Source of the DNA: Lachnospiraceae bacterium
GTDB lineage: Bacteria; Bacillota; Clostridia; Lachnospirales; Lachnospiraceae
Direction of reading: 5' to 3'
Assembly: GCA_017428105.1 (NCBI GenBank)
Contig: JAFRRM010000034.1
Coordinates: 1-60,935 of the forward strand
DNA length: 60,935 nucleotides
The notes below the pieces were generated by a model, which did no database searches, was not told where the DNA came from, and saw nothing but the letters and a program-made list of their open reading frames with translations. Below, piece by piece: positions 7,078 to 9,910 of this stretch. Made by a program: the position numbers and the translations under genes. Every line of letters starts with the position of its first letter. Positions within the stretch are counted from its first letter, which is position 1.

Positions 7078-7118
7078 AAAAAAGCTGACAAAGGAACCGT
7101 CCCTCTGTCAGCTTTTTT
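7078..7118. terminator. typA terminator built on the palindromic repeat
   Basis: 13-base perfect stem AAAAAAGCTGACA / TGTCAGCTTTTTT, whose 15-base loop (AAGGAACCGTCCCTC) is the repeat core. T-runs on both strands make it bidirectional, serving typA and the convergent serpin gene ending at 7142. Confidence 0.85.
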
Positions 7119-7141: not shown

Positions 7142-8623
7142 TCACGGTTGGTTTACGACGCCCGCGAAGAGCGGGAGGTTGTCGTTGCCCAGGATGAGGA
7201 AAAAGTACGGGCGGTCGAGGATGAGGTCGATCTCGTCCTCGGGCGGGAGGGGGGCGCCGACCAGGGCATCGACATAGGAGGCGGCGCTGACGCCTTCTTC
7301 ATCCATGATCAGGCGGCTGGTCTGGGTGATCTCCTGGAGACAGGCGCGGTCCTTGCCCAGAAGCGGGGAAAAATCGGCTGCGTCCGGATCCAGAATGGTG
7401 TGAATGCCCAGAGCCGTCAGATCGTCCGTCAGATCCTGTGTGCAGGTGAAGTCCAGTTTGGGAAGGGAGAGGTGGATGCGGGTCCATGCTCCGGCGGTCA
7501 CGCCGTTGTAGTCCTGCGGAACAAAGCTGTCTGTCGCTTCCTCGTATTTCCTGCAGCGGGTCACGTCCGGGGCCGTCAGAAAGGCCCGGAACGCTTTGTC
7601 CGCCAGCATCTCGGTCAGCGTCACGCCTTCATCGGGCAGGAAAAACAGGACGTGGCTGCTGAACGTCGGAACGTCGATGAAGATGAATTTGTCCCCGTAA
7701 TAGTACCCGTTCAGATAATTGTCCGCGTGCAGAAAAGTGACGGTGCGGTCCCCCTGACTGCCGTGAAAGACCAGTTCCCGGTTGTTCTTTTCCGCAAAGG
7801 GCACGCCCCATTTGGTCTGCAGAAACAGGGTGCTGAGGAGACGCAGCGCGGTATCGGGTCTGAATTGCAGCCGGTCGATTTTTTCCGCCAGGAGTCCGCC
7901 GGTCTGCGCATTCAGCCAGTCGCGAAGCAGCTGGTCGTAGGCAGGATCTCCCATTTCGCCCTGAAATACGGAAGCATAATAGTTTTCGGCCACGGTACGG
8001 ACCGTTTCCGGGGCATAGGCGTACTCTCCGGACAGCCAGAGGGAGTTGGCGGGGATCGATTTCTCCACGCCGTTGTCGATGTACGCGAGCTCCCACACCT
8101 TCCGGGCCTGCCCGCGTAGCGCGTCCATGCTGTCCGCGTGCAGGGCGTCCAGGATCTCCTGCCGGCTTTCTCCGCCGGACGTTTCGGCCAGAATAGCCAT
8201 GCTCATAAAAATATTCACGGGCGACATGACCGCGTTTTCCGTGTCCTCCTCCCCCAGCAGCTGCAGGGTGACATCGGCAAAGAAACGGCGGAAGCTGTCT
8301 CCGGCGCCGCGGTTCTGCATCCGCCGCTCCCAGGCGGGATCCGGCTGATCGGCGGCTGCATTGTTGTAATAATCCTTCCACTGCTTATCCGTGGGATAAA
8401 CAGGCTCCGCCAGGGCGGCGGCGCGGGCCGCGGGCTTGCGGAATGCTCCGCTGTCCCGGCCGAAAAGGGTGATGCCCCCGATGATCAGGCCGACGGCCAG
8501 CAGTGCGCAGGCGGCCAGAACTGCCGTATATTTTTTCCCGGCCCGCTGTGCCGGGGCCGGTTTCTCCAGGATCAGCTCGTCATCCAGCTCGGTGACGGCT
8601 TCCATGATCTTTTCGCTTTTCAT
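7142..8623 (-). CDS. Membrane-tethered serpin, candidate anti-sigma partner
   Basis: 493 residues. Residues 1-30 are cytoplasmic and contain MKSEKIMEAVTELDDELI, a segment like the N-termini of membrane proteins paired with ECF sigma factors in Clostridia. One membrane helix covers about residues 32-54. Residues from about 108 form a serpin domain: SPVNIFMSMAILAETSGGES, then NSLWL, then FLQTKWGVPF. The hinge EEGVSAASY starts at residue 442 and a C-terminal DRPYFFLIL stretch follows. The reactive loop ends around VGAPLPPE, so P1 is probably Ala or Pro; hinge residues are only partly small, so inhibitory activity is plausible but unproven. The start at 8623 overlaps the sigma-factor stop (ATGA), with GGAG upstream. 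Serpins in family form covalent traps for serine proteases; here the trap would face outside while the N-terminus meets the sigma factor. Confidence 0.88.
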   Translation of the reverse strand: MKSEKIMEAVTELDDELILEKPAPAQRAGKKYTAVLAACALLAVGLIIGGITLFGRDSGAFRKPAARAAALAEPVYPTDKQWKDYYNNAAADQPDPAWERRMQNRGAGDSFRRFFADVTLQLLGEEDTENAVMSPVNIFMSMAILAETSGGESRQEILDALHADSMDALRGQARKVWELAYIDNGVEKSIPANSLWLSGEYAYAPETVRTVAENYYASVFQGEMGDPAYDQLLRDWLNAQTGGLLAEKIDRLQFRPDTALRLLSTLFLQTKWGVPFAEKNNRELVFHGSQGDRTVTFLHADNYLNGYYYGDKFIFIDVPTFSSHVLFFLPDEGVTLTEMLADKAFRAFLTAPDVTRCRKYEEATDSFVPQDYNGVTAGAWTRIHLSLPKLDFTCTQDLTDDLTALGIHTILDPDAADFSPLLGKDRACLQEITQTSRLIMDEEGVSAASYVDALVGAPLPPEDEIDLILDRPYFFLILGNDNLPLFAGVVNQP

Positions 8624-9180
8624 TCGATCCACTCCTTTTCCTTCAGATAGGCAGCCAGTTTCCGGCGCGTGCGGGACAGGATCATCCCGACGCGGGCCTG
8701 GCTGCTCCCGGTCCGGTCCGCGATCTCGCGCACGGTGTCCAGGTACCAGTAGCGGCGGATGAAGATCCCGCGGGCCGGTTCTTTCAGGCTCTTCACAAAT
8801 TCGGATATCGCTGCGGCCAGGGCCCGGCCTTCCCAGATCTCTTCCGGGGTATTGTCATCCCGCAGGCTGTTTTCCAGCTCCTCCAGCGCGAGCGCCATTT
8901 CGCTGCCGCCCCGCTTTTCCGCGGTCTCCCGGCGGTACCGGTCGATGGCGCGGCGCCGCACGATGCGCCCCAGGAAGGGCATCAGATGCTCCGGCTTATG
9001 CGGCGGGATCGCCTTCCACGCATCCAGCAGGGCGTCGCTCACCGCCTCCTCCGCATCCTCCCGGGACGCCAGGATCCGCCCGGCCAGACGCAGCATCATC
9101 CCGCCGTACTGTTCCTGTACGGCCGCCAGCGCTTCTTCATTTCTGTCCCAGAACAGGGCAATGATCTCCCGATCGTCCAT
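8620..9180 (-). CDS. ECF-type RNA polymerase sigma factor
   Basis: 186 residues with sigma-70 region 2 (ALAAVQEQYGGMMLRLAGRIL, then DAEEAVSDALLDAWKAI) and region 4 (RRYWYLDTVREIADRTGSSQARVGMILSRTRRKL). The start at 9180 is chosen because GGAGG lies 5 bases upstream; an in-frame ATG at 9210 has no ribosome site. It overlaps the membrane-bound serpin by 4 bases, the usual arrangement for an ECF sigma factor and its membrane anti-sigma factor. It would direct polymerase to a small regulon after an extracytoplasmic signal. A possible promoter is at 9256-9285. Confidence 0.93.
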   Translation of the reverse strand: MDDREIIALFWDRNEEALAAVQEQYGGMMLRLAGRILASREDAEEAVSDALLDAWKAIPPHKPEHLMPFLGRIVRRRAIDRYRRETAEKRGGSEMALALEELENSLRDDNTPEEIWEGRALAAAISEFVKSLKEPARGIFIRRYWYLDTVREIADRTGSSQARVGMILSRTRRKLAAYLKEKEWIE

Positions 9181-9255
9181 AAAGGCCTCCGGTGCTGAAA
9201 ACGTTTTCACTGTTGATGTCGCAAAGAGCGGGGGAAGGATAACGATCCCCGGTCA

Positions 9256-9285: not shown

Positions 9286-9472
9286 GTGATCTTTACGGGC
9301 CAGGCCTGCTGACGGGCCGCAGACAGGCAGATCGTTCCGATCCCGGCACGGACCGCCCCGTGACCCGCCCGTTTCTGCATTTCACCGCCCAATTTCGGCC
9401 ACTTGACGTTTTTTGCGGGACAAAAGCCGGGGCTTGTAGTATGATGGGGCCATCAAGAAAAAGGAGGCAGCC

Positions 9473-9910
9473 ATGAAGGTCAGCGTAGATGTATCGCCTG
9501 CGTATACGGAACCGTTCATCGTGATCCATACGGACCGGATCACGGAGGAGGTGCAGCAGATCCTGGACGTGTTCGGGGCGAAGGATGTTCCGATCACCGC
9601 GCTGCAGAACGAAGAGGACATCGTCATTCTGAAGCCGCGGGAGATCTATATGGTGCGCGTGGAGAACGGCGACACGGTGATCTACGGGGAGAAGACGCAG
9701 TACCGCTCCCGGAAAAGGCTCTATGAACTGAGCCGCCAGCTGGGGAATCAGTTCATGCAGATCTCCAAATCCACGCTGATCAATCTGTCCGTCATGGATA
9801 GTCTGGAGCCGGGGTTCGGGGGCACGTATCTGCTCAAACTGAAAAACGGGCTGAAGGATTACGTCACGCGGACGTACCTGCCCGGGTTCAAAAAGTATCT
9901 GGGACTGTAA
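9473..9910 (+). CDS. LytTR-family DNA-binding regulator
   Basis: 145 residues. The first half is an uncharacterised N-terminal segment (VSPAYTEPFIVIHTDRITEEV). The second half is a LytTR domain (EIYMVRVENGDTVIYGEKTQY, RLYELSRQLGNQFMQISKSTLINL, then GLKDYVTRTYLPGFKKYLGL), which binds DNA as beta-strand repeats. It has no receiver domain, as usual for stand-alone LytTR proteins that control a membrane partner. AAGGAGG lies just upstream of the ATG. The DUF3021 membrane gene follows 38 bases downstream, a common clostridial pair in which the membrane protein is thought to inhibit the regulator and the regulator to activate its own operon. Confidence 0.92.
   Translation: MKVSVDVSPAYTEPFIVIHTDRITEEVQQILDVFGAKDVPITALQNEEDIVILKPREIYMVRVENGDTVIYGEKTQYRSRKRLYELSRQLGNQFMQISKSTLINLSVMDSLEPGFGGTYLLKLKNGLKDYVTRTYLPGFKKYLGL

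Follow-up and report, generated by a model that had tools for sequence, protein, structure and literature searches.

In the window, the whole 60,935-nucleotide stretch of contig JAFRRM010000034.1 from a Lachnospiraceae bacterium (assembly GCA_017428105.1), we have identified an extracytoplasmic function (ECF) sigma factor gene that overlaps the gene for a membrane-spanning serpin, a member of a family of one-shot protease inhibitors. The two probably work together, the serpin as the likely anti-sigma factor and the pair as a predicted reporter of extracellular protease attack. Sequence comparison gives good support to the serpin as a transmembrane anti-sigma factor. An outside protease is the most likely signal, made plausible by a hinge that appears insertable, a lock-like stalk between membrane and serpin body, and the site-2 protease of the genome.

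The sigma factor matched Sigma70_r2 of Pfam (E 8.7e-12) and the sigma70-ECF family of NCBIfam (E 4.3e-22). Both Sigma70_r2 and Sigma70_ECF scored above the Pfam cut-off, region 4 stayed slightly below it (23.8 vs 24.1), and TIGR02937 was matched with 78.5 bits at a cut-off of 42.9; by these matches the protein classifies as an ECF sigma factor. Its partner classifies with the serpin superfamily by a domain score above the curated cut-off; in a Pfam scan to E 1, Serpin was the sole match, and no anti-sigma family, DUF4179 or RsiV domain appeared. The first-pass annotation, made from the letters alone, had described an ATGA shared by the two genes, and a serpin with a short cytoplasmic N-terminus, one membrane helix and an outer domain with a hinge. 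Both descriptions were confirmed: the genes lie on the minus strand with four bases in common, and the hinge DEEGVSAAS occupies serpin residues 441–449 (Table 1). The orientation with the N-terminus inside was deduced from basic residues preceding the helix. Such a layout (ECF sigma factor co-encoded, inner N-terminus, single helix, outer sensor) fits a transmembrane ECF anti-sigma factor. It lacks the four-helix class I anti-sigma domain, since only about 31 residues precede the membrane helix; class I domains average 101 amino acids (PMC7406223, as far as the accessible text goes). No second anti-sigma candidate adjoins the sigma gene, the neighbour at 9473-9910 being a divergent LytTR-like gene. 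The closest relatives (72–73% identity) belong to Lachnospiraceae metagenome-assembled genomes (MAGs) of goat (omasum) and water buffalo (rumen) origin; the window presumably stems from a comparable bacterium of an animal gut.

The pairing recurs in Clostridia of gut and rumen. A protein search returned 1238 relatives, scored only where most words were common, and most of the 120 listed open with a tail of this kind and a membrane helix. The locus set consists of the best 80 of 519 relatives from a scan of species genomes with two peptide patterns, one of which was the hinge. It holds 85 serpin open reading frames (ORFs): 67 come immediately after an ECF gene, 16 have none and 2 are cut by a contig end. 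A −4 overlap joins 57 of the 67 ECF-linked pairs, where the start was picked nearest to the sigma stop, a choice that favours overlaps. As a control, we took 100 high-scoring, conventional serpins (one per genome, 100 genomes) from the matches listed by a Pfam search of the class, and none had an ECF gene upstream. Recurrence elsewhere, a check named in the earlier annotation, thus came out in favour of the pair. The pairs come from named MAGs and from isolate genomes. Adjacency by chance or through faulty assembly, for which nothing spoke, is refuted by this conservation (67 of 85 against 0 of 100) and retains next to no probability. Separately, an apparent natural sigma–serpin fusion in another record, P0008, was taken as a frameshift and left uncounted, because its sigma part leaves the frame after region 2.

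Linkage to an ECF gene goes with the form of the serpin N-terminus. Between 24 and 71 residues precede the membrane helix in all 67 ECF-linked serpins, against 3–46 in the 16 without ECF, and a simple pattern for the tail motif was present in 59 of the former and in none of the latter. The 16 resemble lipoproteins or secreted or anchored forms; a lipobox-like Cys occurs in ten of them, but also in 11 of the 67. Four of the 16 (L033, L065, L081 and L084) share their locus with an ECF gene of this kind, and in the first three a second, ECF-linked serpin was parsed. The ECF–serpin system is real, yet not common in the class. Among 391 evenly drawn genomes, a Pfam serpin is present in 165, and the profile of the subfamily gave full-length matches including the tail in four genomes and six genes among the matches listed; two of the six belong to the window's own genome, and an ECF gene adjoins five. 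The sixth (L267, G316:C14) is a serpin with a type-1 tail, for which about 1.2 kb of upstream sequence contained no ECF gene; it is possibly an orphan anti-sigma factor for another ECF.

An argument for anti-sigma action comes from the way the tail varies. Pairwise distances were correlated over 60 pairs (those of the 62 type-1 tails with usable sigma and core). The tail follows sigma (r 0.74) more closely than it follows its own serpin core (r 0.38), sigma and serpin being correlated with r 0.63. Given the serpin, the partial correlation of tail and sigma is 0.69, a value reached in none of 2000 permutations; given sigma, that of tail and serpin is −0.17. No other part of the chain that was compared behaves like this: 22 serpin-core segments of 30 columns reached at most r 0.56 with sigma (partial 0.18), and the membrane helix plus nine residues gave 0.26 in the same test. 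Both halves of sigma correlate with the tail alike (0.68 and 0.67), and a test for an amphipathic helix had a weak outcome. Because the inner tail varies in step with sigma, the serpin likely keeps sigma off, and the tail of about 30 residues is well supported, on comparative grounds, as its predicted sigma-binding part. What weighs most against this reading of the co-variation is linkage. Within the serpin gene, it is the tail portion that adjoins sigma, and recombination within the membrane helix could move both together; this would still leave sigma and tail as one module.

The same module appears in front of other outer domains. Of 16 non-RpoD sigma ORFs analysed in the window genome, seven fall into the clade of the window sigma (68 rows, support 96), and the partner gene behind each of the seven codes for a membrane helix preceded by a short tail. 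Two of these partners carry serpins on the outside and one a vWA domain (L011), while the outer domains of four (L012, L019, L020, L022) were left unnamed by the scans made; L012 and L020 had no Pfam match, L019 and L022 being outside that scan. A profile built from serpin tails ranked the non-serpin tails of L011, L019, L022 and L020 3rd, 4th, 5th and 9th in a list that included 218 control N-termini and left out L012 and two of the eight other-family partners (L010, L021). The scores were modest, from 14.8 to 5.9 bits, and an unrelated control N-terminus (S1-domain ORF, window +59562) was level with L020 at 5.9 bits. Where the sigma family changes, the tail type changes with it.

These observations also bear on a reading of the serpin as mere output, i.e., as an anchored protective inhibitor whose tail is the long n-region of a signal anchor, with the ECF sigma factor regulated otherwise. 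The common operon with an ECF-type promoter in front, so that the serpin is likely sigma-controlled, would agree with it, as would the region behind the membrane helix, which resembles a signal-peptidase site in many members. An output, however, needs no tail that co-varies with sigma rather than with its own chain, that recurs on other outer domains, or that is switched together with the ECF family, and it would leave the window sigma gene with no other anti-sigma candidate next to it; we regard this reading as quite improbable. Regarding the serpin as the anti-sigma factor, we also considered the fold of sigma and tail, taken from a locus with both genes in frame. It reached a predicted template-modelling score (pTM) of 0.53, with a predicted local distance difference test (pLDDT) of about 62–66 for the tail helix. 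As it gave no confident docking, direct binding of the tail to sigma is something we infer. Of the earlier claim that the serpin acts as anti-sigma factor through its first 30 residues or so, the comparative side therefore stands (conserved pair, tail–sigma co-variation, tail on other domains, tail switch with the sigma family), with binding of sigma as a prediction from it.

The nature of the signal can be approached through the reactive loop, for which 64 ECF-linked examples were parsed. P17 is E, P15 is G and P12 is A in all 64; P11 is A or T, P10 is A or S, P8 is mostly T or V, and P9 is Y or F in 63. The constancy of the hinge arises partly by construction, because the loops were both searched and parsed with criteria that favour it. 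This does not apply to the small residues at P1 (A/S/G in 51 of 64: A 34, S 11, G 6). P2 is G in 46 of the 64 loops. The consensus of inhibitory hinges is given as ExGTEAAAA-like from P17 to P9, with small residues from P15 to P9 (PMC8233489, accessible text). The window hinge, E-E-G-V-S-A-A-S-Y, fits at P17, P15, P12, P11 and P10, and departs from it with V at P14 and Y at P9. As the inward-facing positions stay small or aliphatic, the loop looks insertable, and inhibition of a protease by the window serpin is likely, judged from these residues.

An anti-sigma serpin might nevertheless sense something other than a protease: a ligand, heat, envelope stress or loss of folding, with the serpin fold as a metastable switch, as in carrier serpins. 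The tail evidence supports anti-sigma action and is silent on the signal. The best structural matches include corticosteroid- and thyroxine-binding globulins, though among many other serpins, and in the window loop (V-G-A-P) a Pro directly follows the likely P1 Ala, which makes an odd cleavage site. Yet P14, P12, P10 and P8 are small or aliphatic, P2–P1 G-A(S/G) recurs as expected for cleavage by a protease, and the related siropins of gut bacteria inhibit neutrophil elastase and proteinase 3 (PMC5127057, in the text available), so that we consider a non-protease input unlikely.

For a protease signal, a route to the membrane is suggested by the stalk. The model of the window serpin (mean pLDDT 84.5, pTM 0.80; tail and reactive loop disordered) is closer to relaxed than to native serpins. 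In the comparison with solved serpins, the alignment began at model residue 97–106 for 46 of the 50 rows shown. Native tengpin aligns further out (2pee with residues 67–493, 2vh4 with 70–493), and two antithrombin entries align from residue 75; 2pee is also the nearest solved serpin by sequence (E 2.4e-21). In tengpin, the N-terminal tail is reported to attach close to strand s1A and thereby to keep the native state stable (PMC8233489, accessible text). Because the stalk aligns to that tail, the segment joining membrane and serpin is predicted from the model to be a native-state lock, and through this lock-like stalk, protease attack could plausibly be passed on to the membrane. It holds the signal-peptidase-like A-x-A triplets A-R-A, A-A-A and A-L-A; such triplets did not reach significance. 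The genome encodes a single Peptidase_M50, i.e., site-2 protease.

We offer as a hypothesis a transmission route built by analogy on the tengpin lock and on RsiV, a lysozyme receptor that signal peptidase cuts once lysozyme is bound (PMC6066255, in the part available); the idea of the lock as transmission link follows from the anatomy of the serpin. At rest, the tail of about 30 residues would bind sigma at the membrane, out of reach of RNA polymerase. Once a protease has cut the reactive loop, the loop would insert into sheet A, and this insertion would loosen the stalk, which corresponds to the tengpin lock, from its docking place on the serpin body. The juxtamembrane segment freed in this way could then undergo site-1 cleavage, possibly through signal peptidase in the manner of RsiV, and subsequently be cut by the single site-2 protease, which would set sigma free. 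The candidate promoter in front of the operon is of ECF type and resembles those of the relatives, so that sigma would transcribe the operon from which it is made and replace the spent serpin. The consumed inhibitor would thus be the signal, and the new inhibitor part of the answer.

The candidate promoter was identified by its conservation upstream of sigma genes. From 69 upstream regions, 22 were dropped (sigma start unplaceable or region short). A TGTNA[CT]-like −35 with a GCG[AT]C −10 precedes 22 of the remaining 47 sigma genes, against a mean of 0.6 and a maximum of 4 in 200 dinucleotide shuffles, an excess that kinship inflates. This candidate promoter may resemble the SigX/SigV-type promoters. 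A whole-genome scan with one promoter pattern, one base longer than the window's own spacing, gave no matches. From the promoter sequence, we infer autoregulation of the sigma–serpin operon.

Table 1 Coordinates of the sigma–serpin pair and its candidate promoter in the window
Feature	Position	Strand	Basis or remark
ECF sigma factor gene, 186 aa	8620..9180	−	ATG at 9180, stop TGA 8620-8622; family matches, sigma tree
Membrane-spanning serpin, predicted anti-sigma factor, 493 aa	7142..8623	−	ATG at 8623; Pfam Serpin E 9.5e-43
ATGA overlap, sigma stop TGA and serpin ATG	8620..8623	−	Read from sequence
Cytoplasmic tail, residues 1-31, starts MKSEKIMEAVTELDDELILEK	8531..8623	−	Predicted sigma-binding segment: sigma co-variation, tail profile, low model confidence
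Transmembrane helix, residues 32-55	8459..8530	−	Hydrophobicity and helix in structure model
Juxtamembrane stalk, residues 67-105	8309..8425	−	Predicted packing like tengpin N-terminal native-state lock
Serpin core, residues 106-493	7145..8308	−	Pfam match and structure model
Hinge and reactive-centre loop, residues 441-470, DEEGVSAASYVDALVGAPLPPEDEIDLILD	7214..7303	−	Sequence; 451-462 disordered in model
Candidate ECF promoter −35, GTTATC	9238..9243	−	Conserved upstream of sigma genes
Candidate ECF promoter −10, GCGAC	9218..9222	−	Conserved upstream of sigma genes

Coupling of a serpin to an ECF sigma factor seems not to have happened only once. The same genome encodes a second pair (L024:5307-7315), also with an ATGA overlap, whose serpin is 19% identical to the window serpin in the alignment. 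From residue 94 onwards, this serpin matches tengpin by sequence, and the match covers the lock tail. In the tree it groups (support 100) with two lipoprotein serpins encoded some kilobases further downstream. These stand in tandem at L024:9369-12033, and TGCAAC was seen upstream of both the second pair and the unit at L024:9369, a hint that the ECF of the second pair controls the L024 lipoprotein serpins. The region upstream of the lipoprotein serpin of L003 revealed nothing clear. In the serpin tree, the window subfamily forms a single clade (86 rows, support 100), and 64 of its members are ECF-linked. Within it, the serpins of L043, L069, L074 and L102 have a different tail type and an ECF of a distant family, which groups with L008, another ECF of the window genome (support 98). 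A third tail type, of about 75 residues, is found in L246 and L247 (G175 and G238, one genus). There the serpin combines this cytoplasmic tail with a membrane helix and a long Pro/Thr linker, and its gene overlaps that of an ECF even further removed; the position of that ECF in the tree is unsure, as its branch is long. The second pair on another serpin lineage and the two further tail types with other ECFs suggest that the coupling arose repeatedly. State changes on the tree cannot separate gain from loss and so do not fix the number of origins; three unrelated combinations of tail and sigma are most simply read as at least three couplings.

In its widest form, the proposal is that a suicide inhibitor serves as receptor: Clostridia would possess one-shot protease detectors, with the spent inhibitor as signal and its replacement as output, a design for which unrelated tails and sigma factors were joined on several occasions. 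To this generalisation we give even chances. Should a serpin indeed report to RNA polymerase, bacterial serpins would gain a signalling role, there would be an example of an irreversible trap serving as a receptor, and commensals of gut and rumen would be able to sense host or rival proteases directly.

A few further elements surround the operon. The perfect palindrome TGAAAACGTTTTCA is situated just downstream of the candidate −10 (window 9197-9210), and repeats of the GTGAAAGCGCTTT type occupy the same place in the near relatives L025, L026, L027, L028, L031 and L032. We take the palindrome to look like a LacI/CcpA-type operator, which hints at a putative catabolite control of the sigma–serpin operon. 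An inverted element, gacaaaggaaccgtccc.ctgtca, is repeated behind the serpin gene (window about 7087-7112) and before a lipoprotein serpin (L024 about 9325-9355), and looks like a dispersed repeat or a terminator. A plasmid search returned no match.

In the literature searched, mostly other than subscription papers and largely at the level of titles and abstract openings, no serpin anti-sigma factor came up. In its accessible text, PMC8233489 describes what most prokaryotic serpins do as enigmatic, and states that the proteolytic signalling of which eukaryotic serpins are part is absent from prokaryotes. Siropins and the serpin of Bifidobacterium longum are likewise gut-bacterial serpins, which inhibit elastase-like host proteases; the available part of the source treats them as inhibitors only and mentions neither a sigma factor nor transmembrane signalling (PMC5127057). 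Tengpin, from Thermoanaerobacter tengcongensis, has its N-terminal tail near s1A, at the place to which the window stalk aligns, but is described as a free serpin, with no sigma partner mentioned in the text at hand (PMC8233489).

Among anti-sigma factors, the shortness of the tail recalls CnrY, a minimal class II factor of which a short two-helix stretch wraps the ECF sigma factor CnrH (PMC7406223, accessible part). CnrH is a distant relative in the profile of the window sigma. The sensor is unrelated; the likeness of the tail is one of length, and we claim no relation in sequence. An interchange of sensors is known from RsgI–SigI of cellulolytic clostridia, where one anti-sigma design bears exchangeable outer domains (PMC3990059, PMC3413522, both in the text available). 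RsgI, however, senses polysaccharides and partners SigI, while here the partner is an ECF sigma factor and one of the sensors is a serpin. A close parallel in operation is RsiV–SigV of Bacillus subtilis and Clostridioides difficile. There a transmembrane ECF anti-sigma factor encounters the attacking enzyme directly through its outer domain, and its membrane-near signal-peptidase site 1 is shielded until the enzyme binds, after which the site-2 protease RasP follows (PMC6066255, in the part available). In the window pair the outer domain is a serpin instead, and irreversible covalent trapping together with a change of shape is predicted as the trigger in place of reversible binding. The serpin would be a sensor variant within the known design of transmembrane anti-sigma factors.
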